Below, one piece after another: positions 7,715 through 59,650 of a DNA stretch of 64,000 nucleotides (the stretch's first letter is position 1; every line of letters starts with the position of its first letter). Both the position numbers and the translations under genes were made by a program. The stretch is from Nitrospira sp. (GTDB lineage Bacteria > Nitrospirota > Thermodesulfovibrionia > UBA6902), in contig JADHUV010000011.1 in the NCBI GenBank assembly GCA_016784355.1, positions 1 to 64,000 of the forward strand. The letters run 5' to 3'. The notes below the pieces were generated by a model. The model searched no databases. It had not been told where the DNA came from and worked only from the letters and a program-made list of their open reading frames with translations.

Positions 7715-7733
7715 TTAATTCTTAACTATAGTG

Positions 7734-7765
7734 AAAAGGAGCACCCGCCAAAGGTGCTCCTTTTT
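7734..7765 (+). terminator. Intrinsic terminator after the LamG/MopE gene
   Basis: GGAGCACC (7738-7745) pairs with GGTGCTCC (7753-7760) around a 7-base loop, followed by TTTTT. The stem is extended by A-U pairs. It ends the transcript of the large secreted protein. Confidence 0.92.
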
Positions 7766-7947
7766 ATTTGGCTGTAATAGAATAAAGATTGTTGATGCTT
7801 ATGTCGATGGTCTATAGGTAAATAGATTCTAAAAGATAAACAGCAATTTAATCGGCACCTTTGCAGGATGCGGTTAACCGTTCTGATTTATCGCAATAAT
7901 ATGTATAATATACGATTAAGTTAATAGTTTATCAGGATAGACTGAAT

Positions 7948-9518: not shown

Positions 9519-9955
9519 AAAAGTTCAATATTGAAACAGGTGTCGGAATCTTTATGATTATCGGCTTGTTAAGTCTGGCATATCTGTCTGTCAGGCTTGG
9601 AGATGTCAAGATGTTCGGCAGTGAACAGTACAGGATCAAGGCCCGCTTTGCAAGTGTTACAGGACTTAAGCCGGGTGCTGCCGTGGAGATAGCCGGAGTG
9701 GCGGTGGGAAAGGTTGATCAGATCAGTCTTGATAATTACGAGGCCTTAGTGGTAATGATGATTGATCCTGAGGTAAAGCTGCAGGAGGATGCTATTGCCT
9801 CAATAAGGACTGCGGGTATTATAGGGGATAAGTATATAAAGATAACCACGGGCGGGGCCGATGAGTATATAGCGCACGATGGTGAAATAATTGATACCGA
9901 ATCAGCCCTGGAGCTGGAAGAGTTGATAAGTAAATATATCTTTGACAAAGAATAG
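9515..9955 (+). CDS. mlaD: MlaD/MCE-domain lipid-transfer subunit
   Basis: At 146 residues this is a normal MlaD-length protein: one N-terminal transmembrane helix (about residues 8-27) and one MCE domain starting YRIKARFASVTGLKPGA, with the hydrophobic pore-loop region near RTAGIIGDKYI. MlaD hexamers form the periplasmic lipid channel sitting on MlaE-MlaF. Its ATG overlaps the mlaF stop (ATGTG/TGA arrangement), and mlaC follows after about 60 bases. Confidence 0.94.
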   Translation: MKKFNIETGVGIFMIIGLLSLAYLSVRLGDVKMFGSEQYRIKARFASVTGLKPGAAVEIAGVAVGKVDQISLDNYEALVVMMIDPEVKLQEDAIASIRTAGIIGDKYIKITTGGADEYIAHDGEIIDTESALELEELISKYIFDKE

Positions 9956-10017
9956 TTGCCTGTGTCCCGTATAACCGGGGATAGGGTGATAAATAATTTT
10001 TAAAAAGGTCTGGTGTG

Positions 10018-10635
10018 ATGAAAAAAATATTTTTGGCTGTCATTATATTAATCGTATTTTGTATCGGACAGGCTTCCACTGTGTCTGCTGTGAGTACTCC
10101 TATTGAATCGATAAGGTCTACTGTAGATGGAATTCTAAACACAATGAGAGATCCGGCTTTTTCAGATCCCGCCAGAGTAGAGGAGCGAAGAAATAAAATA
10201 AGCAAGCTTATAAGAGAACGCTTTGATTTTCTCGAGATGTCAAAACGCTCCCTTGCCAAATATTGGAAGCCGCTGGTGCTGGAGGAAAGAAAGGAGTTTG
10301 TACAGTTATTTTCTGATCTTCTGGAGGCCTCTTACATTGGTAAAATTGAGTCATATACGGATGAAAAGATAACGTACGACAGTGAAAGTATAAAGCAAGA
10401 GGACAAATACGGTGTAGTTAATACAACAATCAAGACAGCAAGTGTTGATATACCTATAGAGTATAAGCTGATAAACAGGACTGGTGAGTGGCTTGTCTAT
10501 GATGTAGTGATTGAGGGTGTCAGTTTTATTAGCACGTACAGGAGTCAGTATGCGAAGATTATACGAAAAGAGCAGTTTGCCGGGCTGATCAACAAAATGA
10601 AGGAAAAGCTTTCTGAAGTTAATGCGACGCCGTAA
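10018..10635 (+). CDS. mlaC: MlaC-type periplasmic phospholipid-binding protein
   Basis: This 205-residue protein has a signal peptide (KKIFLAVIILIVFCIG, cleavage near VSA) and the Tgt2/MlaC fold, with ERFDFLEMSKRSLAKYW and the later VVIEGVSFISTYRSQY, both characteristic of the family. MlaC shuttles phospholipids between the outer-membrane MlaA complex and MlaD. A GTG directly upstream (10015) is in frame, but ATG 10018 is preferred. It is the last gene of the mla operon. Confidence 0.92.
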   Translation: MKKIFLAVIILIVFCIGQASTVSAVSTPIESIRSTVDGILNTMRDPAFSDPARVEERRNKISKLIRERFDFLEMSKRSLAKYWKPLVLEERKEFVQLFSDLLEASYIGKIESYTDEKITYDSESIKQEDKYGVVNTTIKTASVDIPIEYKLINRTGEWLVYDVVIEGVSFISTYRSQYAKIIRKEQFAGLINKMKEKLSEVNATP

Positions 10636-10720
10636 ATCTTGATTTTATTTCATGACAATCAGATATAATTAGGAACTGTGCCTGCATAAAACTGCCGTGG
10701 TAAAGAGGGGAATGTAGTTT

Positions 10721-11191
10721 ATGGAAGTGAAGATAAAAGATATTATCAAGAAGTACAAGGATGAGTTCATTCTTTTTAATATGCTGGATGAGAGTGAAAT
10801 TGAGAATATTGTTCCTTATCTGGCAATTGAGGATTATCTGCAAGGTTCGGTCTTATATAATGAGGGAGACGAGGGTAATTATATAGGCTTCATAATACAA
10901 GGGGAACTTGAGGTTAAGAAGGAAACAGAATTTAAGGGCAAACAGATAGTTATAGCTATACTTGGCGAGGGGTCTTTTGTCGGGGAGTTGGCCCTGGTGG
11001 ATGCAAAGCGGAGAAGAAATGCCACGGTAGCGGTAAGGCAGAATGTAGAGCTGGTTACTTTGAATCGCGCTTCCCTTGAGATTATAGTTGAAAAATATCC
11101 TCGCATTGCAATAAAGATTCTTAAGGGTCTTAACCAGATTATGGCAATTCGTATGAGAAAGGCTGTTGACCGGCTGGCATCAATTTTTTAA
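10721..11191 (+). CDS. Stand-alone cyclic-nucleotide-binding-domain protein (copy 2)
   Basis: The 156-residue paralogue of the 3795-4268 gene consists of a cNMP-binding barrel with NEGDEGNYIGFIIQGEL and the phosphate-binding cassette GSFVGELALVDAKRRRNATV, a better match to the consensus (GE-x-A-L plus Arg) than copy 1. There is no helix-turn-helix; the chain ends in a helix with AVDRLASIF. GAGGGG upstream supports the ATG. Following mlaC and preceding a DsbA-like lipoprotein, it may be cotranscribed with either; partner and ligand are unknown. Confidence 0.83.
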   Translation: MEVKIKDIIKKYKDEFILFNMLDESEIENIVPYLAIEDYLQGSVLYNEGDEGNYIGFIIQGELEVKKETEFKGKQIVIAILGEGSFVGELALVDAKRRRNATVAVRQNVELVTLNRASLEIIVEKYPRIAIKILKGLNQIMAIRMRKAVDRLASIF

Positions 11192-42457: not shown

Positions 42458-43432
42458 ATGCCCTATCAGCCACCTTACACAATAACCTCAAAAATCCTGT
42501 CACTGGTTGCACAGATCAGTGAAGCGGTTGCAGGTGTTAATCTTGTTGAGATTCAAAATTCGCCTATGCTTCGCAGGCAAAACCGCATTAAAACTATAAC
42601 CGGTACATTGGCAATTGAGGGCAATACGCTCAATTTAGATCAGGTATCGGCAATTATTGAGGGCAAGCCGGTTCGTGGTTCACAAAAAGAGATTGCCGAG
42701 GTGCGAGGGGCAATTAAAGCTTATGAAGCCTTGGCGCAGTATCAGGCGCATAGCATGGATGACTTACTGGGTGCGCATCAAAAAATGACCGAAGAAATTT
42801 TGCCGGATGCAGGGCGTTTTCGTATTAATAATGTCGGTGTGCATAAGGGAGGTAAGGTGATTCATGTTGCTCCACAGGCAGACCGTGTCAAAGCTTTAAT
42901 GAAAGAATTATTGTGCTGGCTTAAACAGACGGATGATCATCCTTTAATCCGTAGTTGTGTGTTTCATTATGAGTTTGAATTTATTCATCCCTTTAGTGAT
43001 GGTAATGGCAGAATGGGTCGGCTGTGGCAGACATTGATATTAGGGCAATGGCGTGAGCTGTTTTATTCTTTGCCGATCGAAAATACCATCAAAAATAATC
43101 AAAAAGCCTATTACAGTGCACTAGTAAGTGCTGATGATAACGCAGACAGTACTGTGTTTATCGAATTTATGCTTCGTATTATTTTAGCAAGTATCGAGAC
43201 AAGCGACCCAGTAACCGACCCAGTAACCGACCCAGTTGGAAAACTATTATCTGTAATGGGGGATGGTTATTTAAGCAGTGCCCAAATAATGGCGAAAGTC
43301 GGTTTATCTCATAAACCCACATTTAGAAAGAACTACTTGTTACCAGCTTTAAAACAGGGCGTAATCAGTATGAGTTACCCCGACATACCCAATAGCCCAA
43401 AACAAAAATATAAAAAGAAACTCAATACATAA
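42458..43432 (+). CDS. Fic family AMP-transferase with N-terminal inhibitory helix
   Basis: The 324-residue Fic protein should transfer AMP (or another NMP) to a target protein. The Fic motif HPFSDGNGRMGR is complete (residues 177-188). The inhibitory motif T-x3-E-G is present at T50-E54-G55 (TLAIEG), making it a class II enzyme that is self-inhibited. The C-terminal part (about 250-320) looks like a winged helix and is preceded by a DPVT repeat linker (12-base repeat at 43205-43237). It overlaps nothing and has no obvious antitoxin neighbour. Confidence 0.9.
   Translation: MPYQPPYTITSKILSLVAQISEAVAGVNLVEIQNSPMLRRQNRIKTITGTLAIEGNTLNLDQVSAIIEGKPVRGSQKEIAEVRGAIKAYEALAQYQAHSMDDLLGAHQKMTEEILPDAGRFRINNVGVHKGGKVIHVAPQADRVKALMKELLCWLKQTDDHPLIRSCVFHYEFEFIHPFSDGNGRMGRLWQTLILGQWRELFYSLPIENTIKNNQKAYYSALVSADDNADSTVFIEFMLRIILASIETSDPVTDPVTDPVGKLLSVMGDGYLSSAQIMAKVGLSHKPTFRKNYLLPALKQGVISMSYPDIPNSPKQKYKKKLNT
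43205..43237 (+). repeat. 12-base tandem repeat inside the Fic gene
   Basis: GACCCAGTAACC occurs twice, followed by GACCCAGTT, encoding DPVTDPVTDPV in the linker between the Fic domain and the C-terminal winged helix. Copy number may vary without breaking the frame. Confidence 0.9.
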
Positions 43433-46528: not shown

Positions 46529-47113
46529 ATGAAGATGAAAATAAAAAAACTGGCAACCGTGCAGATGGGATATTCGTTCAGGTCACGTCTCGAAGCCTCT
46601 GAAGGTGGCGGAGTTGCAGTTATTCAGATGAAGGATCTTCTGGATGACAACACGGTGGGCTGTGATGGTCTGGTCAGAATCAACATGGAGGCCATGAAAG
46701 ATCACCACCTTGCGCAAAGAGGTGATCTGGTATTCAGGTCTCGCGGGCATGTGACCACGGCAGCGGTTCTTCTTGAGGATCCGGGCAAGGCCGTTGTCGC
46801 CGCTCCTTTATTAAGGATAAGGGTGACCAAGCCGGACAAGGTTTTGCCCGAGTATCTGAACTGGTACATCAGCCAGCGGGATGCGCAGATTTTTTTGACC
46901 AGCCGGGCTAAAGGGACGTTTCAGAAAATGATCAGCAAGCAGGCCATTGAAGATCTGGAGGTGGCACTGCCAAGTCTGGATAAACAGAAAAACATCGTAG
47001 AGCTGGCCACGCTGTCTGCTCGTGAACAAACCCTGCTTCACACGCTGGCTGATAAGCGGGAACAATACATTTCAACAGTACTAATGCAGTTTGCCAGGGG
47101 AGGAAAAGCATGA
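46529..47113 (+). CDS. Half-length HsdS-like protein (single target-recognition domain)
   Basis: The 194-residue protein has the layout of one half of a type I specificity subunit: a target-recognition domain (about 1-150, with VIQMKDLLD and RGDLVFRSRG) followed by one conserved coiled-coil region (LPSLDKQKNIVELATLSAREQTLL). A full HsdS exists at 50545. AAGGTGA precedes the ATG. It ends overlapping the next start by four bases (ATGA). It may dimerise to act as an alternate specificity unit, or belong to a separate module; no methylase of its own is adjacent. Confidence 0.78.
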   Translation: MKMKIKKLATVQMGYSFRSRLEASEGGGVAVIQMKDLLDDNTVGCDGLVRINMEAMKDHHLAQRGDLVFRSRGHVTTAAVLLEDPGKAVVAAPLLRIRVTKPDKVLPEYLNWYISQRDAQIFLTSRAKGTFQKMISKQAIEDLEVALPSLDKQKNIVELATLSAREQTLLHTLADKREQYISTVLMQFARGGKA

Positions 47114-47511
47114 ACCACGAAAAACACGAAAGGCACGAAAAAATACTTTTCAGGGATGAATGTTACCAGATTCAGGGGGCGATTTTTGAAGTGTACCGTG
47201 AAATGGGTTGCGGATTTCTCGAAGCGGTTTATCAGGAATGCCTGGAAAAAGAACTGAAGCGAATTGACATCCCATTTGTTTCTCAGCAAGAATTACAGTT
47301 ACTTTACAAAGGAGATTCCCTAAAACAAACCTACAAACCGGATTTGATTTGTTATGGCAAAATTATCATTGAACTGAAAGCGGTTAAGGAAGTTGCGCCA
47401 GAACACAAAGCGCAGGTGATTAACTATTTGAAAGCAACCGGGATGAAACTTGGATTGCTCGTCAGCTTTGGAACATATCCGAAAGCATCAATCACACGAT
47501 TGGCTCTTTAA
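47110..47511 (+). CDS. GxxExxY protein (PD-(D/E)XK nuclease-like)
   Basis: The 133-residue protein carries the name motif in GCGFLEAVYQECL and a nuclease-like PDLICYGKIIIELKA (Asp, Glu-x-Lys). The family (PDDEXK_3) has no known function. Its first codons, ATGAACCACGAAAAACACG, are part of a short interspersed repeat whose inverted partner lies just after the stop (47514-47541), so the gene looks like a cassette framed by the repeat. It overlaps the preceding stop by four bases. Confidence 0.82.
   Translation: MNHEKHERHEKILFRDECYQIQGAIFEVYREMGCGFLEAVYQECLEKELKRIDIPFVSQQELQLLYKGDSLKQTYKPDLICYGKIIIELKAVKEVAPEHKAQVINYLKATGMKLGLLVSFGTYPKASITRLAL
47113..47140. repeat. CACGAAA-family repeat, left arm at the GxxExxY gene
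   Basis: Begins AACCACGAAAAACACGAAAG, continuing GCACGAAA. It pairs with the inverted arm at 47514-47541 (ends CCTTTCGTGGTTA). Together they flank the GxxExxY gene; related arms sit inside hsdR. Confidence 0.88.
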
Positions 47512-47561: not shown

Positions 47562-49163
47562 ATGAATAAGATTGATCAGAAAGACATCAACAACGCGGCA
47601 TGGGCGGCGTGCGACACCTTCCGGGGCGTTGTTGATCCGGCGCAGTACAAAGACTACATCCTCGTGATGCTGTTTTTGAAATATATCTCTGATGTCTGGC
47701 AGGACCACTACGAAGAGTATCAAAAGCAGTATGGCGATGATGATGTACGTATCCGCCGCAAGCTCGAGCGTGAACGTTTTGTTCTCCCGGTGGTGAAACT
47801 CACCGAAAAGAATGACGAAACTGGTGAAGAAACGGTTCTGGATGAATTCCCCGCCACCTATTACAGCCTCTATGAGCGCCGGTCCGCCGCCAACATCGGT
47901 GAGCTGATCAATATCGTGTTCGAACACATTGAAGAGAGCAACAAGAGCAAACTCGAAGGGGTCTTCCGTAATATCGACTTTAACAGCGAGGCCAACCTCG
48001 GGCGGACGAAGGATCGGAATAAACGCCTCAAAACGTTGCTGGAAGACTTCAACAAGCAACAGCTCAGCATGAAACCCAGCCTCGTTTCCGAGGATGTCAT
48101 CGGGAACACCTACATCTACCTGATTGAGCGCTTCGCCTCAGACTCTGGAAAGAAGGCCGGAGAGTTCTTTACCCCGTTGAAGGTGACCGAGCTGGTGGCC
48201 AAGCTGGCAGGCCCCAAACCGGGCGATCGCATCTGTGACCCGGCCTGCGGATCGGGCGGCCTTTTGGTTCAGGCTGCTGCTGAAGTCGCTAAGCAAGCGG
48301 GGAACGATGTACAGGCAGGTCGCAACTTTGCCCTCTTCGGACAGGAGTCCAACGGTAGCACCTGGGCGCTCTGCCGCATGAACATGTTCCTGCACAGCTT
48401 CGACAGCGCCCGAGTGGAGTGGTGCGACACCTTGAATAGTCCGCTGCTGGTGGAAAATGACCGGCTCATGAAATTCAACTGCGTGGTGGCCAATCCGCCG
48501 TTCTCGCTGGATAAATGGGGTGCGGAAAGCGCTGAGAGCGATCAGTACAACCGCTTCTGGCGCGGGGTGCCGCCCAAGAGCAAAGGCGACTGGGCTTTTA
48601 TTAGCCACATGGTGGAAACCGCCCTTGAAAAGCAGGGCCGTGTCGCCGTGGTGGTGCCTCATGGCGTTCTATTCCGGGGTGCTGCTGAAGGGCGTATCCG
48701 GGAAAAAATGATTGAAGAAAATCTGCTGGATGCTGTCATCGGCCTGCCGGGCAACTTGTTCCCGACCACCAACATACCGGTGGCGATTCTGGTTTTTGAC
48801 CGCTCCCGTGAAAAAGGCGGAGCCCGTGAAGAATGTAAAAACGTCTTCTTTGTCGATGCCAGCCGGGAGTTTGTGTCCGGGAAAAATATGAACACCCTCT
48901 CGGAAGCGCATATCGGCAAGATCATGAAGACCTACGCCGCCCGTGCTGAAGAGGAAAAGTACGCCCATGTGGCCGACCTCAAAGAGATCAAGGAAAACGA
49001 CTTCAACCTCAATATCCCCCGCTATGTGGACACCTTTGAAGAGGAAGAGGAAATCGACATCGATGCGGTGCAGGTGGAAATTGACGATCTGGAAAAAGAG
49101 CTTGTGGAAGTCCGCAAGCAGATGGCGGAAAAGCTTCAACAGATTAATCGGGGGGATGCATAA
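47562..49163 (+). CDS. hsdM: Type I restriction-modification DNA methyltransferase HsdM
   Basis: The 533-residue N6-adenine methyltransferase has an N-terminal HsdM helical domain (DPAQYKDYILVMLFLKYISD), the SAM motif DPACGSGG (residues 226-233) and the catalytic NPPF (311-314, in VVANPPFSLDKWG). A C-terminal coiled coil (VEIDDLEKELVEVRKQMAEKL) contacts HsdS. GGAGAATTATT precedes the ATG. It overlaps dinD by one base (TAATG). Confidence 0.97.
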   Translation: MNKIDQKDINNAAWAACDTFRGVVDPAQYKDYILVMLFLKYISDVWQDHYEEYQKQYGDDDVRIRRKLERERFVLPVVKLTEKNDETGEETVLDEFPATYYSLYERRSAANIGELINIVFEHIEESNKSKLEGVFRNIDFNSEANLGRTKDRNKRLKTLLEDFNKQQLSMKPSLVSEDVIGNTYIYLIERFASDSGKKAGEFFTPLKVTELVAKLAGPKPGDRICDPACGSGGLLVQAAAEVAKQAGNDVQAGRNFALFGQESNGSTWALCRMNMFLHSFDSARVEWCDTLNSPLLVENDRLMKFNCVVANPPFSLDKWGAESAESDQYNRFWRGVPPKSKGDWAFISHMVETALEKQGRVAVVVPHGVLFRGAAEGRIREKMIEENLLDAVIGLPGNLFPTTNIPVAILVFDRSREKGGAREECKNVFFVDASREFVSGKNMNTLSEAHIGKIMKTYAARAEEEKYAHVADLKEIKENDFNLNIPRYVDTFEEEEEIDIDAVQVEIDDLEKELVEVRKQMAEKLQQINRGDA

Positions 49164-50020
49164 TGGATCACAATACAATTACTAAGCTCACGAGTTCATT
49201 TGATGCCCTTGCTCATCAGATTCCTGATGAGGAAACGGAATTTTGGTATGCACGAGAGATTATGGTAGCTCTTGGGTATGACCGCTGGGAAAACTTCAGT
49301 AAAGTCATTCTCAAAGCATCCATTGCTTGTGAGACCGCAGGTGGGGTGGTTGCCAACCATTTTCGTGGCGTCACGAAAATGGTCCAAATTGGCTCCGGGG
49401 CCGAGCGACCTGTTGATGACATCATTCTCACCCGTTACGCCTGTTATCTGATCGCTCAAAACGGTGATCCTCGTAAAGAAGCGATTGCATTCGCTCAGAC
49501 CTATTTCGCGGTACAGACCCGCAAGCAGGAGCTGATTGAGGAGCGACTGCGTCTTCAAGAACGTCTTCAGGCAAGACAAAAACTCACCGAGTCGGAAACC
49601 GAACTCTCCCGCAACATCTACGAGCGTGGCGTGGATGATCAAGGGTTTGGTCGAATCCGTTCCAAAGGAGATGCCGCCCTATTTGGCGGAAACTCCACCG
49701 CTCAGATGAAAAACAAGCTGGCCATGCCGTCAAATCGGCCACTTGCCGACTTTCTGCCGACCGTGACCATTGCCGCCAAAAATCTGGCGGCTGAAATCAC
49801 CAATCACAATGTCCGTCAAAATGACTTGCAGGGCGAGCCTTCTATCACGGGAGAACATGTTCAAAACAACACCAGTGTCCGTAATATGCTGAGAGAACGT
49901 GGCATTAAGCCCGAAGAACTGCCGCCCGAGGAGGACATCAAAAAACTGGAACGGCGGGTGAAATCTGCTGAGAAAAAGCTGATTAAGGGCTCTGAGCTTC
50001 CGAAGGGAGGCAACCAATGA
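49163..50020 (+). CDS. dinD: DinD-like protein
   Basis: The 285-residue protein is a DinD-family (DNA damage-inducible D) homologue: YAREIMVALGYDRWENF forms the Bro-N/ANT-like N-terminal domain, DDIILTRYACYLIAQNGDP and QTYFAVQTRKQELIEE are the conserved core, and the C-terminal part is helical. E. coli DinD binds RecA filaments and limits strand exchange. Its place inside an hsd operon suggests a role in modulating repair of restricted DNA, which is inference. Start overlaps the hsdM stop; its stop overlaps the next ATG. Confidence 0.88.
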   Translation: MDHNTITKLTSSFDALAHQIPDEETEFWYAREIMVALGYDRWENFSKVILKASIACETAGGVVANHFRGVTKMVQIGSGAERPVDDIILTRYACYLIAQNGDPRKEAIAFAQTYFAVQTRKQELIEERLRLQERLQARQKLTESETELSRNIYERGVDDQGFGRIRSKGDAALFGGNSTAQMKNKLAMPSNRPLADFLPTVTIAAKNLAAEITNHNVRQNDLQGEPSITGEHVQNNTSVRNMLRERGIKPEELPPEEDIKKLERRVKSAEKKLIKGSELPKGGNQ

Positions 50021-50053
50021 AGGGTGAAGTTGGAAGTTTGAAGGGTGAAAGGA
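50016..50053. repeat. GAAGTTTGAAG-family repeat at the start of the four-helix gene
   Basis: AATGAAGGGTGAAGTTGGAA followed by GTTTGAAGGGTGAAAGG. The ATGA in it is both the dinD stop and the next start. Related copies lie at 50400, 51813 and 58851. Confidence 0.8.
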
Positions 50054-50403
50054 AAAGTGATTTGCCGGAACGGTCGTTTGAGTTTGCTAAGCGGATTGTT
50101 TTACTGTGTCAGGCTTTGGATGAAAAACCGGGGGTTAGTCGAACTTTGGCAAATCAATTGTTAAGATCAGGGACTTCGGTCGGAGCAAATATTGAAGAAG
50201 GACAGGCCTCGCAAAGTGAAGCCGATTTTGTCTCCAAATACAGCATTGCCTGTAAAGAAGCCCGTGAAACACATTATTGGTTGAGACTTTTATGTGCAAC
50301 CGGAATTGTTGAAGAAAACAAGCTTGCTGAATTAACTGATGAGTGTAATCAAATCATTGCTATTCTGACCACGATTATTAAGAAGATGAAGGAGCGGAAA
50401 TGA
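50017..50403 (+). CDS. Four-helix-bundle protein (23S rRNA IVS family)
   Basis: The 128-residue protein matches the TIGR02436 four-helix-bundle family first seen in 23S rRNA intervening sequences: FEFAKRIVLLCQALDE, LANQLLRSGTSVGANIEEGQA and KYSIACKEARETHYWLRLL. Function is unknown. Its first eleven codons come from the GAAG-family repeat, and its stop falls in the next copy of that repeat. This suggests that the gene travels with the repeats. Confidence 0.88.
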   Translation: MKGEVGSLKGERKSDLPERSFEFAKRIVLLCQALDEKPGVSRTLANQLLRSGTSVGANIEEGQASQSEADFVSKYSIACKEARETHYWLRLLCATGIVEENKLAELTDECNQIIAILTTIIKKMKERK

Positions 50404-50528
50404 AGTTTGAAGTTAGAAATGTGAAGAGTGAAATGAAGTTGAAGAGAGAAGTTCGAAGTTTGAAAATAACGAGATGAAGCCAGACTATATTTCATTTTAC
50501 CCTTCAAACTTCACCATTCACACTTTTT
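50400..50528. repeat. GAAGTTTGAAG-family element with inverted partner
   Basis: The left arm starts at 50400 with ATGAAGTTTGAAGTTAGAAA and runs to 50433; it is 32/33 identical to 51814-51846. The right arm (50495-50528, TTTTACCCTTCAAACTTCAC then CATTCACACTTTTT) is inverted. The left arm also reads as a 25-codon frame (50400-50477) that overlaps the previous stop. No larger gene lies here. Confidence 0.85.
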
Positions 50529-50544: not shown

Positions 50545-51816
50545 ATGAATAAAACACTTCAAGTTCCAAACGGCTGGAAGTCATCCAAAATAAAGGATGC
50601 TGCTCAGGTAAACCCTCGTTCATATTTTGTTGATGATGACACCTTGGTGACATTTCTTCCAATGAATGCTGTATCTGAGTCAGGCATTATTCATGGTGCT
50701 GAGACTCGAAAAGCTGTTGATGTAAAGACGGGGTTTACATCTTTTGAAACCGGCGATGTCTTGGTAGCTAAAATCACTCCATGTTTTGAGAATTATAAAG
50801 GCTGCCTATGCACAGAGCTAAAAAATAATCGTGGATTTGGCAGTACCGAATTTCATGTTCTTCGCCCAAAGAAGAATATAACGGGCGAGTATCTACATAT
50901 CCTCACGAGAACGCACCATTTTAGGGGAACAGGCGAGCTAAACATGACAGGTACAGCTGGCCAGAAACGTGTTCCTACAATTTTTTTGAAGAACTATGAT
51001 TTTCAGCTTCCTACGCTCCCAGAACAAAAGGCCATTGGCGATCTGCTGTCCACCTGGGATGAGGCCATCGAGAAAACCGAACGGCTGATTCAGGCGAAGG
51101 AACGGCAATTAAGGCAGATGTCGAGATGGCTGCTATTTGGTCACAAAAGATTGGGTAATCAAAAAACTGAATCGGCTGATGGTCATTTCTTTAAATACCC
51201 ATCTGACTGGGCGTTGGTCAAAATTGGAAAAGTTGCAAAGGAAGTTTCTGCACGCAACGGGGAGTCCGAAGAGACTGTACTGTCATGCTCAAAATATGAC
51301 GGGTTTGTTAATTCGCTGGACTACTTCGGAAAACAAGTCTTCAGCAGTGATACATCCAACTACAAGGTCGTTAAAAAAGGACAATTCGGCTATCCATCAA
51401 ATCATGTTGAAGAGGGTTCAATAGGCCTTCTTGAACACTGCGAAAAAGGCATTGTCAGTCCGATCTATGTTGTGTTTGAAGCCTCGAGAGAAAAGGTACA
51501 TTCACCTTATTTGTACAAGCTGCTTAAGACGGATATTTATCGACACATTTTCCAAGTCAGCACAAGTTCATCGGTTGACCGCCGAGGCAGTCTTCGCTGG
51601 GGTGACTTTTCTAAAATAAAAGTTCTGATTCCGTCGCTTGAGGAACAACAGGAAATCTCCGAGACACTGGCTTCTGCTCGGCACGAAATCGACCTGCTGA
51701 AGCAGCTCGCAGATAAATACAAAACCCAGAAACGCGGCCTGATGCAGCGCCTCTTAACAGGTGATTGGAGAATCAAGTTCGATGTCATAAAAACCTTTGA
51801 GGAGACCGATAAATGA
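50545..51816 (+). CDS. hsdS: Type I restriction-modification specificity subunit HsdS
   Basis: The 423-residue full-length HsdS contains two target-recognition domains (about 8-150 and 215-360). Each is followed by a conserved helical spacer: LPTLPEQKAIGDLLSTWDEA (about 155-174) and IPSLEEQQEISETLASARHE near residue 370. It ends KRGLMQRLLTGDWRIKFD plus a short tail. It directs HsdM and HsdR to a bipartite site that cannot be read from sequence. GGGAG precedes the ATG. Its stop lies in a repeat element shared with 50400. Confidence 0.95.
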   Translation: MNKTLQVPNGWKSSKIKDAAQVNPRSYFVDDDTLVTFLPMNAVSESGIIHGAETRKAVDVKTGFTSFETGDVLVAKITPCFENYKGCLCTELKNNRGFGSTEFHVLRPKKNITGEYLHILTRTHHFRGTGELNMTGTAGQKRVPTIFLKNYDFQLPTLPEQKAIGDLLSTWDEAIEKTERLIQAKERQLRQMSRWLLFGHKRLGNQKTESADGHFFKYPSDWALVKIGKVAKEVSARNGESEETVLSCSKYDGFVNSLDYFGKQVFSSDTSNYKVVKKGQFGYPSNHVEEGSIGLLEHCEKGIVSPIYVVFEASREKVHSPYLYKLLKTDIYRHIFQVSTSSSVDRRGSLRWGDFSKIKVLIPSLEEQQEISETLASARHEIDLLKQLADKYKTQKRGLMQRLLTGDWRIKFDVIKTFEETDK

Positions 51817-51935
51817 AGTGTGAAGTTAGAAATGTGAAGAGTGAAAATTTTCAAACTTCGAACTTCCTTCTTCACACTTTTTTAGGCGAATGGCGGGTAA
51901 AACCGGAAATCGTTAACCAATACATGGAGGCGTAA
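51813..51935 (+). CDS. Cryptic 40-codon ORF made from a repeat and an HsdS-like tail
   Basis: ATG 51813 overlaps the hsdS stop (ATGA). The frame reads MKCEVRNVKSE from the repeat element and then FLGEWRVKPEIVNQYMEA, which resembles the end of many HsdS proteins (LTGEWRVK-type) and parallels TGDWRIKFD of the present HsdS. It may be the displaced original 3' end of hsdS or a small coupled peptide. It ends two bases before the DUF2188 gene. Expression is unproven. Confidence 0.4.
   Translation: MKCEVRNVKSENFQTSNFLLHTFLGEWRVKPEIVNQYMEA
51814..51879. repeat. GAAGTTTGAAG-family element forming a hairpin after hsdS
   Basis: AAGTGTGAAG (51816-51825) and CTTCACACTT (51870-51879) are the outer arms; the inner parts are imperfectly complementary. 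51814-51846 is nearly identical to 50401-50433. The hsdS stop is the first codon of the element. Confidence 0.85.
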
Positions 51936-51937
51936 TC

Positions 51938-52171
51938 ATGGCTAAAGGTAAAAATCAGCACGTTGTAAAACATCCCGATGGCTGGGCGGTCAAGGGCGCA
52001 GGTAACAGCAAAGCGACCAAAGTTACCCGCACACAGGCACAGGCCATTGATAAGGCGGAGAACATCGCCAGAAACCAGAAGTCGGACACCAAGATTCATG
52101 GCGAGAACGGGAAGATCCGGGCTGGCAACAGCTACGGAAATGACCCGTGCCCTCCTAAGGATAAAAAATAA
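51938..52171 (+). CDS. DUF2188-domain small protein
   Basis: The 77-residue basic protein matches DUF2188: HVVKHPDGWAVKGAGNSKAT, then AIDKAENIARNQ and the ending GNSYGNDPCPPKDKK. Family members are common beside restriction and mobile genes; no function is known. GGAGG in the preceding tail acts as ribosome site. It separates HsdS from the RloC-like gene. Confidence 0.85.
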   Translation: MAKGKNQHVVKHPDGWAVKGAGNSKATKVTRTQAQAIDKAENIARNQKSDTKIHGENGKIRAGNSYGNDPCPPKDKK

Positions 52172-52183
52172 GGAGTGGAATTG

Positions 52184-54280
52184 ATGAATATTGAAATTCA
52201 CAACTGCAACAATATTGACACAGCAACTATTTCGATTGCTGGAAGTAAGCTGAATATCAAGTTTGCGCCGAATGGGACAGGCAAAAGCACCATTGCAAAG
52301 GCGGTGTTGCTCGGAGTGAAAGGAGAACAAAACCTGCTGAACGAAGAACTCATGCCGTTCAAACTCAGAAAAGAAAACCTGGATAATAAGCAGCCGGAGG
52401 TCAAGGGTGCTGAAGCGCTTAAAAGCATCATGTGCTTCGACGAGAAGTATGTCAGTCAATTTGTTTACAAGCCGGACGAACTCCTCAGCAACAGTTTCGA
52501 TATCTTCATCAGAACCGATTCCTACAAACAGCGAGAACAGGAAATAGAGGAGCTGGTCAGCAATATCAAGCAGCTGTTTTCCGTGAATCAGGAACTGGAC
52601 GCGTTGATCAACACGCTCAAGGAAATGGGGAACGCCTTTAAAACAACAAAAACCGGCTTATCCAAATCGTCTGCCGGCATGAAGGGGTTGTCAGCCGGCA
52701 ACAAAATTAAGCATGTTCCCGCTGGGCTGGAATCTTATACACCGTTTATTCAGAGCCAAAACAGTGTGGGCTGGATCGAGTGGCAAACCAAGGGTTGCGA
52801 GTTTGCCGACCTATCGGATAATTGCCCCTTCTGTACCTCACATACAGCCGACAAAAAGGATCAGATCAAAAAGGTCGGTCAGGAATACGACAAGAACACC
52901 ATCAAAAACCTGATTGCCCTAATTGGCATCATCGAAAAATTAGGGGACTATTTCTCTGATAATGCCAAAAATACACTGACAACAATCACAACCTTGAAGG
53001 AGGGGCTTGAAAAAGAGCATGAGTCATTTCTTGCCACGGTAAAAAAACGGATTGATGACTTTACCGAAAAGCTTGAAAAGCTCAAAACGCTTTCCGCGTT
53101 TCAGTTCAAGGACGGGGAAAAAGTCGTCGAGAAACTGCCAGCATACAAGCTGGACTTGCAGTTCTTTCCAGAGCTTGAATCAAAGAATATGCAGGACGCC
53201 ATCGCCCCGATAAATACTTCAATTGATAAGGTAATTGAACAGGCTGGTCAACTGCAAGGGAAGATTAATCAGCAGCGCCGCGAGATGAAGAAAACCATTG
53301 AGCTTCATCAGAAAGACATCAATGAATTTCTAGCCTATGCCGGATACCGCTATGCCGTTGAGATTGCCGGTGATGGCGAACAGGCCCAGTTAAAACTTCG
53401 GCATATCGATCACGAAGAGCACCTCAGCTTCGGGGAACGGAACGCATTTGCGATCGTGCTATTTATGTACGAATGTCTCTCTAAAAAGCCGGATTTAATC
53501 ATTCTGGATGACCCGATTTCTTCATTCGATAAGAATAAAAAATACGCCATTCTTGAGATGTTGTTTCGGCGTGATGCAGAATCATGCCTCAAAAATAAAA
53601 CGGTGCTAATGCTTACCCATGACGTTGAACCCATCATTGATACTGTCAAAGTACTCTATAGAAAGTTCGACAACCAAACCACCTCAGTATCATTTCTCAA
53701 GCTTAATGCGGGCGTCATTGAGGAGTTGCCCATACAAAAAAATGATGTGAAGACCTTTGCGGAGATTTGCAGTAATGCACTTGGGTCAAGCAAGGATGAT
53801 ATCATCAAGTTAATCTATATGCGGCGGCGTTTTGAGATCGCTGATGACAAAGGTGATGCCTATCAGGTGCTTTCTAATCTGCTACACAAGGGTAACGACA
53901 AGGCTCGCGGGATTGACACCCGAGAGCCGAAAGATGCTGCGGGCAATTACCCTGAAATGGATCAGACGAAGTTTGATGATGGGTGTACTGAAATATCCAG
54001 TCACCTTACGGGGTTTTCTTATAGTGAACTTTTAGGCCGCATTTGCAATGTCACTGAGATGAGGACTGTTTATGCGGCATGCACAAATGGGTACGAAAAA
54101 CTCCAAGTATGTCGACTTATTGATCATGAAGAAAATGACGCTGTCATCGAAAAGTTTATTAAACAGACATATCACATTGAAAACGAATTCATCTGCCAGC
54201 TTGATCCCGCTAAATTCGACACCATTCCAGAATACGTTGTTGCCGAGTGCGATAAAATCGTTGCTGGAGTTTCGCCATGA
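52184..54280 (+). CDS. RloC/PrrC-like AAA ATPase with zinc-hook motif
   Basis: The 698-residue ABC-type ATPase has Walker A NGTGKST near residues 30-36, signature LSFGER (about 414-419) and Walker B LIILDDPISSFD (about 438-449), the AAA_13 layout of PrrC and RloC. The two halves are separated by coiled coils carrying CPFC (about 214-217), a Rad50-style zinc hook that distinguishes RloC from PrrC. The C-terminal part has R-x3-E (YMRRRFE, about R547/E551) and SNLLHKG (H568), compatible with the Arg-Glu-His site of anticodon nucleases, but spacing differs from EcoPrrC. ATG 52184 follows AAGGAG by eight bases. It sits between hsdS and hsdR, as prrC does. Nuclease activity is inferred. Confidence 0.8.
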   Translation: MNIEIHNCNNIDTATISIAGSKLNIKFAPNGTGKSTIAKAVLLGVKGEQNLLNEELMPFKLRKENLDNKQPEVKGAEALKSIMCFDEKYVSQFVYKPDELLSNSFDIFIRTDSYKQREQEIEELVSNIKQLFSVNQELDALINTLKEMGNAFKTTKTGLSKSSAGMKGLSAGNKIKHVPAGLESYTPFIQSQNSVGWIEWQTKGCEFADLSDNCPFCTSHTADKKDQIKKVGQEYDKNTIKNLIALIGIIEKLGDYFSDNAKNTLTTITTLKEGLEKEHESFLATVKKRIDDFTEKLEKLKTLSAFQFKDGEKVVEKLPAYKLDLQFFPELESKNMQDAIAPINTSIDKVIEQAGQLQGKINQQRREMKKTIELHQKDINEFLAYAGYRYAVEIAGDGEQAQLKLRHIDHEEHLSFGERNAFAIVLFMYECLSKKPDLIILDDPISSFDKNKKYAILEMLFRRDAESCLKNKTVLMLTHDVEPIIDTVKVLYRKFDNQTTSVSFLKLNAGVIEELPIQKNDVKTFAEICSNALGSSKDDIIKLIYMRRRFEIADDKGDAYQVLSNLLHKGNDKARGIDTREPKDAAGNYPEMDQTKFDDGCTEISSHLTGFSYSELLGRICNVTEMRTVYAACTNGYEKLQVCRLIDHEENDAVIEKFIKQTYHIENEFICQLDPAKFDTIPEYVVAECDKIVAGVSP

Positions 54281-55638
54281 CCGTCGAATCCCAAAACATC
54301 GAATGGAAACAATCCTGGCATGATGACTACCTGAAATGGATCTGCGGTTTTGCCAATGCGCAGGGCGGGCGGATTTTCATCGGCAAGGATGATGTAGGAA
54401 ACGTCACTTGCCTGAAAAACGCCAAGAAGCTGCTGGAAGACCTGCCGAACAAGATCCGCGATCAGTTGGGGCTGATGCCGCATATCAATTTACTCGAAGA
54501 AGACGGTAAAGCCTATCTGGAAATCATCGTCGAGGCTTCGACGGTGCCCATTTCTCTGCGCGGTTCCTACTACTGGCGTTCCGGCTCAGTGAAGCAGGAA
54601 CTGAAAGGCCATGCCCTGACCGAGTATCTATTGAAAAAAATGGGCATGACCTGGGATCAAGTGATTCAGGAAAGAGCCACGCTGGATGACATCGACGACA
54701 CAACCATTGAGCTGTTTAAAAAGGAAGCGGTCACGGCGGGTCGTTTGCCGGATATTTCAGGGCTTTCTACTAAAGAGCTGTTGAGGAAACTGCACCTGTT
54801 GACTGACGAAGGCCTCACAAATGCGGCGGTGGTGCTGTTCGGCAAGGACCCGGGCGCGTTTTATCCCAACCTGTTTGTAAAGATTGGCCGCTTTGGCCTC
54901 AATATGGTGGATATGCGCTTTCAGGAGGTGTGCGAGGGCAATCTTTTCCAACTCCTTCGCAGTGTGATGGAGCAACTGGAACGAAAGTTCTTAATTAAGC
55001 CGATACGCTTTGAAGGGCTGCGCCGCATTGAAGAGCTGGAATATCCGGTTCCCGCATTACGTGAAATGCTGCTCAATGCGCTGGTGCATCGCAATTATAT
55101 GGGAAGCATGACGCAACTCCGCGTCATGGATGACCGGCTTTCTCTTTGGAATGCCGGAACCCTGCCGCTCGAATTAACCGTCGAAAAGCTGTTTCAGACG
55201 CACCGATCCATTCCCCGTAATCCGCTCATTGCAGAGGTCTGTTATCGTGTGGGCTTAATCGACTCTTGGGGACGTGGAATCGAAAAGATCACCGATGCCT
55301 GCAAAGCAGCTAGCTTGCCTGAACCGATCATTGAAGAAAACTCCGGCGGGATTGCGGTTGAGTTGCTGAAAGAACCGGCTTCCGAAAAAGCTGTTTCGGA
55401 AGGCAGTGGGAATGATTTCGGGACGATTTCGGAAAGAATTCGGAAAGAATTCGGAAGCGAACCTGCTAAAGCTTTTGAGATTATCCGTCAGCACCCGGAG
55501 TTCACAGCCGAACAGATTGCTGAAAAGTTAAATAAAACACCAAGAACGATAGAAAACTATATGGCTAAATTGAAGAAGGCTGGCGTCATCATAAGAAGAG
55601 GGCCAAAGCTGGGTGGCTATTGGGAGGTGAAAGAATAA
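54277..55638 (+). CDS. AlbA_2/Schlafen-type ATP-binding protein with winged helix
   Basis: The 453-residue protein starts with an AlbA_2 (Schlafen-like, formerly AAA_4) domain (NIEWKQSWHDDYLKWICGFANAQGG, IFIGKDDVG), followed by a GHKL-like ATP-binding region (ALREMLLNALVHRNY, LSLWNAGTLP, VGLIDSWGRGIEKI). It ends with a winged helix (FTAEQIAEKLNKTPRTIENYMAKLKKAG). Proteins of this type are frequent in hsd loci as putative regulators. It overlaps the RloC-like stop by four bases and hsdR starts two bases after its stop, so it is built into the operon. Confidence 0.85.
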   Translation: MTVESQNIEWKQSWHDDYLKWICGFANAQGGRIFIGKDDVGNVTCLKNAKKLLEDLPNKIRDQLGLMPHINLLEEDGKAYLEIIVEASTVPISLRGSYYWRSGSVKQELKGHALTEYLLKKMGMTWDQVIQERATLDDIDDTTIELFKKEAVTAGRLPDISGLSTKELLRKLHLLTDEGLTNAAVVLFGKDPGAFYPNLFVKIGRFGLNMVDMRFQEVCEGNLFQLLRSVMEQLERKFLIKPIRFEGLRRIEELEYPVPALREMLLNALVHRNYMGSMTQLRVMDDRLSLWNAGTLPLELTVEKLFQTHRSIPRNPLIAEVCYRVGLIDSWGRGIEKITDACKAASLPEPIIEENSGGIAVELLKEPASEKAVSEGSGNDFGTISERIRKEFGSEPAKAFEIIRQHPEFTAEQIAEKLNKTPRTIENYMAKLKKAGVIIRRGPKLGGYWEVKE

Positions 55639-55640
55639 TT

Positions 55641-58600
55641 ATGTGTGAATTTGCAACAAACGAAAAACGGACGTCTCAAATCCCGGCTTTGCAGCTTTTG
55701 ATTGGCTTGGGATTTGAATTTTTGACACCGGCTGAAGCACTCCGCGAAAGGCAGGATCGAACATCCAATGTCTTGTTGGAAAGTATTCTTCGCAACCAGC
55801 TCAAAGAGATAAACCGCATTCGCTACAAAAACAGTGAGTATCTCTTCAGCGAGGAGAATGTGCAGTCAGCCATCCAAAAGCTGAAAAACATCAAATACGA
55901 CGGACTGCTTAAGACCAACGAGGCTATTTACGATCTGATCACTCTCGGTACGGCCATGGAACAGACCATTGAGGGTGACTCAAAAAGCTTCAATATGAAC
56001 TATATCGACTGGCGTAATTCCGGTCGGAACAAGTTTCATGTGACGGTCGAATACACTGTTGAACGTTCACGATCAACGGAAACCGCCCGTCCAGACATCG
56101 TTCTCTTTGTTAATGGTATTCCGTTTTGCGTGATTGAGTGTAAAGCGCTGCAGATTGAAGTTGAACAGGCTGTTTCGCAGTCGATCAGAAATCAGAATGA
56201 TGACTATATCCCGAAGCTCTTCATCTACAGTCAGATGGTGCTGGCTCTGAATAAAAACAGCGCCATGTACGCAACAACGGGAACCGCTGCAAAATTCTGG
56301 GGGGTATGGAAAGAGTCGGGTTTAACAACAGAAGATTTAACCACGAAAGACACGAAAAGCACGAAAGTTAAAGAGCTGGAAAAGCTGGTTCAGGAGTCTT
56401 TGCAGCATGAAGTTAATCCAGAAACATTTTTCGTGTCGTTCGTGCCTTTCGTGGTTGAAAAAAAATCGCGGCTGGTCACCGAACAGGACATCGCGCTGTA
56501 TGCCCTCTGCCGTCCTGAAAGATTATTGGAGCTTGCCTGGAAATTTACGGTATTTGATGGGGGAATCAAAAAGATTGCCCGTTACCAGCAATATTTCGTT
56601 ATCAAGTCTACCCTTCAGCGGGTAAAGCATTTTGACAGCACCGATTCACGTAAAGGCGGTGTGATCTGGCACACTCAGGGTTCTGGAAAATCCCTGACTA
56701 TGGTAATGCTGGCCCGTAACCTGGCCTTAGATCCTGAAATTTTAAATCCTCGAATTGTTCTGGTAACAGACCGCGACGATCTGGATAAGCAGCTGGGGAA
56801 CACCTTCGCCGCCTGTGGCCTTGAGGCGAACCGTGCGACATCGGGGAGAAACCTGCTGGAACTGGTTGCTGAAAAGAAATCGGGGATTATCACAACCCTC
56901 ATTCATAAGTTCGACAAGGCTTACGCGGTAAAAAAATATCAGGATGAATCTCCTGACATTTTCATTCTGGTGGATGAAAGCCACCGTACCCAGTTCGGGT
57001 CCTTTTCCGCTCGGATGAGACAGATGTTTCCCCATGCCTGTTATTTGGGATTTACCGGCACGCCGCTTTTAAAGAAGGAAAAGAACAACTTTACCAAATT
57101 CGGTGAACTGGTGGAACCCCATTATTCCATTACACAGGCCGTTGAAGACGGCGCGGTGGTTCCGCTTCTGTATGAGGGACGGCATGTAGAGATGACCCAA
57201 AACAGAGAAGCAGTTGATCTGTGGTTTGAGAGGCACACACAGGGGTTGACCAGGGAACAGCAGGCAGACCTGAAACGGAAATATGCACGAGCGGAAATGC
57301 TGAACAAAGCCGATCAGGTCATCTACATGAGAGCTTTTGACATCAGCGAGCACTTTCGCTCGAACTGGCAGGGAACGGGATTCAAGGCCCAGCTGGTGGC
57401 CCCGAATAAAGCATCTGCGCTCAAGTATAATGCGTACCTGAATGAGATTGGTATTGTCAGTTCCGAGGTTGTTATCTCGCCGCCGGATATGCGTGAAGGC
57501 TATGAAGAAACCGACGACGAGACAACAGACGAGGTCGTAAAATTTTGGCAGAAAATGATGAAGCGTTATGGTAGTGAAGACGAATATACCAAGCAGCTCA
57601 TCAACCAGTTTAAACACGGCAGCGAACCTGAAATCCTTATTGTCGTTGATAAGCTGCTTACGGGTTTTGACGCCCCGCGCAATGCGGTCCTCTATTTGTG
57701 CCGGATGTTAAGAGAGCACACGCTGCTTCAGGCAATTGCGAGGGTTAATCGTCTTCATGAAGGCAAGGAGTTCGGTTTTATCGTCGACTATGCAAGCGTC
57801 CTCGGTGAGCTGGACAAAGCGCTTACCATGTACAGCGCATTTGAAGGGTTCGATGAATCCGATCTGGTCGGCACTTTGACATCCATTAACAGTGAAATCG
57901 AAAAACTGCCCACCCGGTATTCCGATCTTTGGGATCTATTCAAAACGGTGAAGCATTCTTACGACGAAGAAGCCTATGAAATGCTGCTTGCCGATGACGA
58001 GCTCCGGGAAGAGTTTTACGGCCGCCTTTCGGAATTCGGGAAAACCCTTGGCATCGCACTCTCTTCCGAGAAATTTCTGACCGAAACCGACGAAAAAACG
58101 TTGATCAGATACAAGGCGGACCTCCGGAAGTTCCAGTCGCTTAAAGCATCTGTCAAGCTCCGGTATGCAGAAGCCATTGATTACCGGGATTATGAGCCAA
58201 AAATCAAAAAGTTGCTGGATACTCACATTCAGGCCAACGAAGTTGTTCAGCTGAATGAGCCGGTAAATATCTTTGACGACAAAATGTTTAATCAGGTCAA
58301 AGAGGAGCAAGGCGTCTACCAGACCAAAAAAACAACAGCTTCAAAGGCTGATACGATTGCGCACTCCACGAAGAAAGTCATCACCGAAAAGATGGATGAA
58401 GACCCTGCGTTTTACGAGAAGTTCTCAAAGCTGATCCAGCAGGCGATTGAAGATTTCAGGGCTAAGAGGATATCCGATCTGGATTATTTGAACAAAGTCG
58501 TCGATATCCGCAACAAGGTTGTCGGCAAGGTACATGATGACATACCGGATAAGCTTTCCGGGAATGAAGATGCCATGGCCTATTTCGGGGTGCTTAAGCC

Positions 58601-58874
58601 TTTCCTTGAAAAGCACGAATTAGGTGAAGAAGACCTTGAATCAGCTGCGGCTGATACGGCAATTGCTATTCATGGCATATTGGAAAAACACAAGAAGGTT
58701 CACTTCTGGGATGATGAAGACGCTCAGAAACAGGCGGTTAATGAGATTGACGATTACCTCTATGATGAGCTCAAGACGAATAGAGGGATCGAACTGTCGC
58801 TTGATCAAATGGATGACATCATCGAGAAGGTGTTGCAGGTGGCAAAGTTTAGAAGTTTGAAGGGTAAAGTTTGA
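55641..58874 (+). CDS. hsdR: Type I restriction endonuclease subunit HsdR
   Basis: The 1077-residue motor-nuclease begins with a PD-(D/E)XK domain (PDIVLFVNGIPFCVIECK; PD at 151-152, E-C-K at 166-168), then a SF2 translocase with Walker A HTQGSGKS (about 345-352), the DESH box in LVDESHRTQFG and motif VI in LLQAIARVNR. A C-terminal helical domain follows. Residues about 233-273 (LTTKDTKSTK to FVPFVVEKK) are an in-frame insertion of a repeat element between nuclease and motor. ATG 55641 gives MCEFATNEKR; an in-frame start seven codons upstream is less likely. Confidence 0.95.
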   Translation: MCEFATNEKRTSQIPALQLLIGLGFEFLTPAEALRERQDRTSNVLLESILRNQLKEINRIRYKNSEYLFSEENVQSAIQKLKNIKYDGLLKTNEAIYDLITLGTAMEQTIEGDSKSFNMNYIDWRNSGRNKFHVTVEYTVERSRSTETARPDIVLFVNGIPFCVIECKALQIEVEQAVSQSIRNQNDDYIPKLFIYSQMVLALNKNSAMYATTGTAAKFWGVWKESGLTTEDLTTKDTKSTKVKELEKLVQESLQHEVNPETFFVSFVPFVVEKKSRLVTEQDIALYALCRPERLLELAWKFTVFDGGIKKIARYQQYFVIKSTLQRVKHFDSTDSRKGGVIWHTQGSGKSLTMVMLARNLALDPEILNPRIVLVTDRDDLDKQLGNTFAACGLEANRATSGRNLLELVAEKKSGIITTLIHKFDKAYAVKKYQDESPDIFILVDESHRTQFGSFSARMRQMFPHACYLGFTGTPLLKKEKNNFTKFGELVEPHYSITQAVEDGAVVPLLYEGRHVEMTQNREAVDLWFERHTQGLTREQQADLKRKYARAEMLNKADQVIYMRAFDISEHFRSNWQGTGFKAQLVAPNKASALKYNAYLNEIGIVSSEVVISPPDMREGYEETDDETTDEVVKFWQKMMKRYGSEDEYTKQLINQFKHGSEPEILIVVDKLLTGFDAPRNAVLYLCRMLREHTLLQAIARVNRLHEGKEFGFIVDYASVLGELDKALTMYSAFEGFDESDLVGTLTSINSEIEKLPTRYSDLWDLFKTVKHSYDEEAYEMLLADDELREEFYGRLSEFGKTLGIALSSEKFLTETDEKTLIRYKADLRKFQSLKASVKLRYAEAIDYRDYEPKIKKLLDTHIQANEVVQLNEPVNIFDDKMFNQVKEEQGVYQTKKTTASKADTIAHSTKKVITEKMDEDPAFYEKFSKLIQQAIEDFRAKRISDLDYLNKVVDIRNKVVGKVHDDIPDKLSGNEDAMAYFGVLKPFLEKHELGEEDLESAAADTAIAIHGILEKHKKVHFWDDEDAQKQAVNEIDDYLYDELKTNRGIELSLDQMDDIIEKVLQVAKFRSLKGKV
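56339..56456. repeat. CACGAAA-family repeat inserted in frame in hsdR
   Basis: Left arm 56339-56366 begins AACCACGAAAGACACG; right arm 56427-56456 (TTTTCGTGTCG then TTCGTGCCTTTCGTGGTT) is its inverse, spaced by about 60 bases. The whole segment is open in the hsdR frame and encodes about 40 residues not expected in the family. Confidence 0.85.
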
Positions 58875-58886
58875 AGAGTGAAATGA
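58851..58886. repeat. GAAGTTTGAAG-family repeat at the hsdR stop
   Basis: AGAAGTTTGAAGGGTAAAGT then TTGAAGAGTGAAATGA. The hsdR stop TGA and the next possible starts all lie in this copy. Confidence 0.8.
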
Positions 58887-59650
58887 AAGATATCTGTGTA
58901 AATCCGTGTGTATCTGTGGTTGTCAAAGATATTCGTGATCATTCGTGTCTATTCGTGGTTAAATATGGTTCTAAGCTGATTGTTTGTCAGTTGATTCACT
59001 GTGACAGAAAAACGATGGAAATTGCTGTGCATCCTGACAGCACGGTTATCGTCAAGGCACCCGCGCAGTCCGACATCACATTGATCGAAAAGAAAATAAT
59101 AAAACGGGCTCGTTGGATTCTCAGGCAGCTGAATTATTTCAAGCAGTTTAATCCAAAGACGCCTAATCGCTGTTACGTGAACGGCGAGACCCACTTGTAC
59201 ATTGGAAAGCAATACCGCTTGAAGTTAGCCGAAGGAGCGGAAAACTCAGTGAAATTGTCTCGTGGCTTTTTTCATATCACTTGCCGGAACGAACCGACTC
59301 CAAGTGCTACCAAGAAGCTATTGAACCAATGGTATTCGGAAAAGGCACAACTTCAATTTGCAGAAAGCATGGATCGGTGCTGGCAGAAATTCAATGGCCT
59401 CGGCATTGATCAGCCAAAACTCTCCATCAAGCGAATGCAAAAAAGATGGGGCAGCCTTTCAGATAAAGGCACAGTAACCCTCAATACAGACCTGATAAGA
59501 GCGCCTAAAGAATGCATTGACTATGTTGTTACGCATGAGCTGTGTCACCTGAAATACCATGATCATAGCCCAGAGTTTTATAAGCTGCTCGACTCTGTTA
59601 TCCCGGGCTGGGAAAAGATAAAACACAAACTCGAACTCAGTATGGTGTGA
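58883..59650 (+). CDS. YgjP-like M48-type metallopeptidase
   Basis: The 255-residue protein belongs to the YgjP/DUF45 metallohydrolases commonly found beside type I restriction genes. It has the zinc motif HELCHLKYHDHSPEF (about residue 218) and the family segment KRMQKRWGSLSDKGTVTLN. The first 30 residues (ICVNPCVSVVVKDIRDHS...) are read from two GTGGTT-ending repeats (58891-58961) and are unlike the family, so the functional start may be later, near KLIVCQLIHCDRK. A TTG at 58871 is an alternative start. Substrate unknown. Confidence 0.87.
   Translation: MKDICVNPCVSVVVKDIRDHSCLFVVKYGSKLIVCQLIHCDRKTMEIAVHPDSTVIVKAPAQSDITLIEKKIIKRARWILRQLNYFKQFNPKTPNRCYVNGETHLYIGKQYRLKLAEGAENSVKLSRGFFHITCRNEPTPSATKKLLNQWYSEKAQLQFAESMDRCWQKFNGLGIDQPKLSIKRMQKRWGSLSDKGTVTLNTDLIRAPKECIDYVVTHELCHLKYHDHSPEFYKLLDSVIPGWEKIKHKLELSMV
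58891..58961. repeat. Two CGTGGTT-type repeats in the 5' end of the YgjP-like gene
   Basis: TATCTGTGTAAATCCGTGTG then TATCTGTGGTT (58891-58921) and ATTCGTGATCATTCGTG then TCTATTCGTGGTTA (58931-58961) are degenerate relatives of each other and of the CACGAAA family in inverse sense. Confidence 0.75.

Follow-up and report, generated by a model that had tools for sequence, protein, structure and literature searches.

A zinc-hook ABC ATPase resembling RloC, with a divergent C-terminal domain, in a type I restriction-modification operon and beside other modification-based defences

We analysed a 64,000-nucleotide stretch of a Nitrospira sp. contig (JADHUV010000011.1; hereafter the window), which carries a type I restriction-modification (R-M) operon. 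In this operon hsdM (47562-49163, + strand) is followed by a DinD-type gene (49163-50020), a four-helix-bundle gene of the 23S IVP type (50017-50403) and hsdS (50545-51816, +). Downstream of hsdS lie a gene for a small DUF2188 protein (51938-52171, +; PADLOC PDC-S16), a resident of this hsd locus type, and the ORF that is the subject of this report (52184-54280, +; 698 amino acids). The latter is a real gene that starts with ATG at 52184, has a stop codon ending at 54280 and is preceded by a Shine-Dalgarno-like AGGAG, a good ribosome-binding site. Its stop codon overlaps by 4 bp (ATGA) the start of a gene for a 453 amino acid protein with SLFN_AlbA_2, HATPase_c_4 and winged HTH domains (54277-55638, +; “AlbA-type”), and the same overlap occurs in two other loci (L002 and L019). 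Next are hsdR (55620-58874, +, with an in-frame ATG at 55641) and a YgjP-type metallopeptidase gene (58871-59650). An earlier note, made from the sequence alone, had set the ORF between hsdS and hsdR with a DUF2188 gene upstream. This order is borne out, but the note overlooked the AlbA-type gene that precedes hsdR.

RNA folding predicts a hairpin with a U-rich tail after hsdS (51816-51884, +; -25 kcal/mol, z -3.8, equalled by 0 of 200 shuffles), a possible terminator bounding the cargo genes described below on the left. Two identical 25-bp direct repeats (50409-50433 and 51822-51846) lie on either side of hsdS, with no further copy in the genome assembly when two mismatches are allowed, and the second is part of the sequence forming the hairpin. 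These repeats could mediate the exchange of hsdS. Directly upstream of hsdM (46529-47511) are a 194 amino acid ORF with a single Methylase_S domain, like half of an HsdS, and a PDDEXK_3 nuclease ORF. A Fic-family protein is encoded about 4 kb 5′ of the operon (42458-43432).

Motif conservation was assessed in 31 aligned sequences, comprising the window protein and 30 relatives, with 39-84% identity and lengths of 685-712 amino acids. All the ABC ATPase motifs recognised earlier are present and conserved, namely Walker A (A28-P-N-G-T-G-K34-S35; 52265-52288, +), the ABC signature (L414-S-F-G-E-R419; 53423-53440, +), Walker B (L438-I-I-L-D-D-P444; 53495-53515, +) and an H-loop THD at residues 478-480. 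The CPFC zinc-hook motif was also found, at residues 214-217 (52823-52834, +). C214, P215 and C217 are invariant (31/31) and the third position is variable (C-P-x-C); the preceding W197, W200 and G204 are alike in form to those of RloC. The hook would be expected to bind zinc and to mediate dimerisation.

The window copy lacks seven residues just before HLSFGER that are present in 30 of the 30 other aligned sequences. The loss is an in-frame deletion of 21 bp at about 53419/53420, just 5′ of the ABC signature. The closest copies have two similar 9-bp stretches at this site, which suggests slippage as its cause. AlphaFold2 confidence is below 50 at residues 411-414, and the window copy may be impaired or altered. 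The deletion, unique among the 31 sequences and adjoining this low-confidence segment, could have disabled the ATPase, leaving the window gene as a decaying passenger of which only the relatives elsewhere work. Against this, the 698-codon frame is otherwise intact and the signature and all other motifs are kept, and we regard decay as plausible without favouring it.

RloC is a protein thought to stop translation once DNA-based phage defence fails. By its published definition, it is 658-897 amino acids long, with a CxxC hook and an R-x3-E-x36-52-H triad, and it acts as a zinc-responsive, wobble-nucleotide-excising tRNase (PMC2610378). RloC-type references were obtained by applying this definition (PMC2610378), as a CxxC hook together with R-x3-E-x37-43-[ST]H, to AAA_13 matches and plasmids, and PrrC references were collected with the PADLOC model PDLC02360. 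At full length, hhalign relates the window family to RloC at E 7.9e-21, with the hook included and in register with that of RloC, and to PrrC at E 8.1e-5 (RloC vs PrrC, 7e-16). The window protein matches the PADLOC model PDLC04889 over residues 1-694 (952.6 bits, E 3.5e-287), and three of the four RloC-type references score 39-57 bits on it. This model belongs to PDC-S06, a candidate system label with no attached function that covers both the window protein and RloC-type proteins, the latter matching other models under the same label. As for the profiles against which the earlier note proposed to check the protein, RloC is thus matched at full length and AAA_13, the Pfam match, over residues 334-482 only, but the PrrC model PDLC02360 is unmatched at E <= 0.1; RloC proteins match that model at 42-52 bits. 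The window family and RloC share a split ABC ATPase head, a CxxC hook after a W...G motif, a size class (698 amino acids falls inside the RloC range), a C-terminal invariant R-x3-E with a terminal K/R-F-x5-H, and the ability to reside in R-M loci of type I or type III.

The C-terminal R-x3-E reported earlier corresponds to R547-R-R-F-E551 (53822-53836, +). R547, R548 and E551 are invariant (31/31), and R547 and E551 are the candidate catalytic Arg and Glu. The N-x2-H proposed alongside it did not hold up: H568 (53885-53887, +), at a spacing of 16 from E551, is K in 3 of the 31 sequences (an alphaproteobacterial branch), and N565 is S in six. H568 is therefore probably not a catalytic residue. 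The invariant histidine of the domain is H664, within K657-F-I-K-Q-T-Y-H664-I-E-N667 (54152-54184, +), where K657, H664, I665, E666 and N667 are all conserved in 31/31. On this conservation H664 is the likely active-site histidine. An invariant block upstream, Y637-E638-K639...R644 (54092-54115, +), offers an alternative Glu-His pair, E638-x25-29-H664. The K657-x6-H664-I-E-N block resembles the end motif of RloC and PrrC, and the full-length profile alignment places K657-FI..TYH664 on the terminal RF....SH of RloC. However, E551 and H664 are 105-112 residues apart, vs 36-52 in RloC, which sets the window family outside the RloC triad; K replaces R in K-x6-H, and Y or F, not S, precedes the His. 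The invariant K657-x6-H664 also departs from the HEPN RNase motif R-x4-6-H, having K where R is expected.

Compared in isolation, the C-terminal domain is not significantly alignable to that of RloC. Its hhalign match to RloC has E 0.049, vs 0.056 for the reversed-sequence control and 4.5e-5 for the positive control of RloC against PrrC. The score of the last 80 residues against RloC was reached by 2 of 200 column shuffles, and the profile alignment does not place the R-x3-E of RloC on R547/E551. A profile test of residues 490-575 was uninformative, because even RloC vs PrrC is non-significant there. Pfam gave weak unrelated matches only, and a search for the domain in other architectures in 247 genomes returned one match, a known family member. 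Since the match of the domain is close to the reversed control, we describe the protein as RloC-like as a whole, with a nuclease-domain identity suggested at the level of motifs. The RloC-type assignment of the earlier note thus stands for the full-length homology (E 7.9e-21, vs 8e-5 for PrrC) and, for the C-terminus, comes down to motifs. By sequence, the protein appears to be a divergent sister of RloC, and neither RloC nor PrrC proper.

AlphaFold2 models had a pLDDT of 82.5 for the C-domain and 81.9 for the full-length protein. Foldseek found no match for the C-domain in the PDB and BFVD at E <= 0.001, a negative that is weak and undecisive with regard to a nuclease because the PDB has no sequence-detectable RloC or PrrC. 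Taken literally, this is the missing structural match to the anticodon nuclease domain that the earlier note had said would count against its reading. The best fold matches of the full-length model are SMC and Rad50 heads, over the ATPase part only. Rad50, SbcC and SMC proteins share the ATPase head fold, and Rad50 and SbcC the CxxC hook, but their heads have no C-terminal nuclease-like domain. The protein might then be a Rad50/SMC-like DNA-sensing ATPase, with a C-domain of some other activity or serving as a partner- or DNA-binding module, and no anticodon nuclease. Such an ATPase would agree with these fold matches, with a C-domain that has neither a significant relation to those of RloC and PrrC nor a fold match, and with the further invariant residues (Y637-E638-K639, R644, H664-I-E-N667), which form a pattern of their own. 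We consider it rather unlikely, given that Arg, Glu and His are invariant, that the end motif K/R-x6-H aligns in register with that of RloC, and that RloC is the nearest full-length relative found.

The window protein has 18 relatives at 70-83% identity in GTDB genomes belonging to several phyla, and 16 loci in IMG/VR at 39-58% identity, where a second scan for intermediates returned the same 16. Among 72,556 plasmid records, 909 gave a match, nearly all at less than 60% identity (903), and Escherichia accounts for 567 of the 909; phage genome records yielded no relative. The family is rare, with 3 of 396 genomes in a phylum sample and 3 of 369 in a gammaproteobacterial sample. Identity is high between phyla, which points to horizontal transfer, and the subfamily is highly mobile. 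IbfA of IncI1 plasmids was considered as a relative and rejected, as it is an ATPase-TOPRIM protein. In two other genomes the relatives are in pieces (L021-L023 in G137, L066-L067 in G726), suggesting loss or decay. On two enterobacterial plasmids (L043 and L044) a convergent VapBC pair comes after the relative, at about 10300-10944.

We compared the neighbourhoods of 19 loci, the window and 18 from other species. As these were found by similarity to the window protein, the counts are descriptive and do not represent a random sample. Ten of the 19 loci lie within or next to defence systems based on DNA modification. Type I R-M genes occur in or near six (the window, L002, L004, L009, L014 and L019), and BREX pglZ-brxL directly precede the family gene in three (L013, L017 and L018). 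A set of type III-like methylase and helicase genes precedes it in one (L003), and also in a plasmid copy (L040). Other neighbours are a NACHT protein (L015), a DinG-type helicase (L007) and a PDC-S73 candidate, which the family gene precedes (L006); the rest are mostly housekeeping genes. A pair of SbcD/SbcC-like genes (exonuclease and large ATPase) lies directly after the RloC-like gene in L003 (12106-17030) and L018 (8849-13407) and two genes beyond it in L040 (13210-17923).

The earlier note had regarded a zinc-hook guard in the place of PrrC as a hybrid arrangement. This is not new, as RloC genes were first seen inserted into R-M loci of type I, hence the name restriction-linked ORF (PMC2610378), and RloC genes within R-M loci are already known. 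What is new is the unusual nuclease-like end of the subfamily and the number of defence systems carrying it; the divergence of that end and the broad association with modification-based defences are the more interesting part.

As in EcoPrrC/EcoprrI, the window gene is inside a type I hsd operon, between hsdS and hsdR, and its product combines an ABC ATPase with a C-terminal domain that has invariant Arg, Glu and His. A true PrrC-type guard, silenced by the surrounding type I complex and freed by anti-restriction proteins, is nonetheless improbable. PrrC proteins are 341-416 amino acids long, the window protein being nearly twice that length, and lack the hook (nine PrrC ORFs that we read have 361-411 codons, all without CxxC). 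Their full-length relation to the window protein is weak (E 8e-5), and the PrrC model fails to match it at E <= 0.1. An extra gene separates the window gene from hsdR, most relatives are outside type I loci, and the AlbA-hsdR core exists without an RloC-like gene.

The interval from hsdS to AlbA/hsdR acts as a slot for exchangeable cargo. In L109 and L111 the AlbA-hsdR-YgjP core comes with just an IVP gene after hsdS, and in L104 with SLATT and DUF87 genes; the RloC-like gene is thus one of several passengers. The IVP-type four-helix-bundle genes of L109 (6660-7022) and L111 (9878-10234), both type I loci without an RloC-like gene, lie between hsdS and AlbA. In L019, two CBASS genes (patatin effector and CD-NTase; 6968-9988) are framed by DUF2188 copies within the hsd operon, and the RloC-like gene lies downstream of the second copy.

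DUF2188 had been put forward as the immediate partner of the RloC-like protein. It lies directly upstream of the family gene in four closely related hsd loci only (the window, L002, L014 and L019), and no DUF2188 match was found in the other 15 GTDB family loci. Between the hsd loci DUF2188 is 88-95% identical, vs 70-83% for the RloC-like protein, which indicates that it moves along with the hsd genes. That DUF2188 and the RloC-like protein make up a toxin-antitoxin or guard-partner pair is therefore very improbable despite the adjacency in these four loci, the more so as DUF2188 matches 457 plasmid records and three plasmid contexts that we inspected have neither an R-M system nor an RloC-like family gene adjacent.

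The reading that we prefer, with a probability of about 0.6, is that of an RloC-like guard carried as a facultative passenger in the slot between hsdS and AlbA-hsdR. The Rad50-type ATPase with its CxxC hook would sense that DNA-based defence has failed, or that damage has occurred in its course, and would then release the C-terminal nuclease. This putative nuclease would probably cleave tRNA, through the invariant R547/E551 (or E638) and H664, and so stop translation; the neighbouring R-M enzyme may exert control over it. The RloC-like guard is supported by the full-length relation to RloC rather than PrrC, the scores of RloC-type references on PDLC04889, hook cysteines, R547, E551 and H664 that stay invariant over 39-84% identity, a length in the RloC range, and the location of 10 of 19 loci in or by modification defence. 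It is weakened by a C-domain no closer to RloC than the reversed control, with an unaligned R-x3-E and a spacing of 105-112, by the absence of a fold match in the PDB and BFVD, and by K657 in place of the HEPN-type R.

Should members of the subfamily cleave tRNA or another RNA, the guard principle of PrrC would extend past type I systems to BREX and type III, and a function would be at hand for a gene in 909 of 72,556 plasmid records (567 from Escherichia). More tentatively, and with some doubt on our part, the subfamily may consist of highly mobile ABC guards that have a hook and a remodelled C-terminal nuclease, of a fold unlike deposited structures, and that serve as a general back-up for DNA-modification defences (type I, type III and BREX); hundreds of enterobacterial plasmids would carry such guards, and phages may have counter-measures still to be discovered. 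A cargo slot from hsdS to AlbA-hsdR would account for the presence of several back-up systems (CBASS, SLATT/DUF87 and the RloC-like protein) inside related R-M operons.
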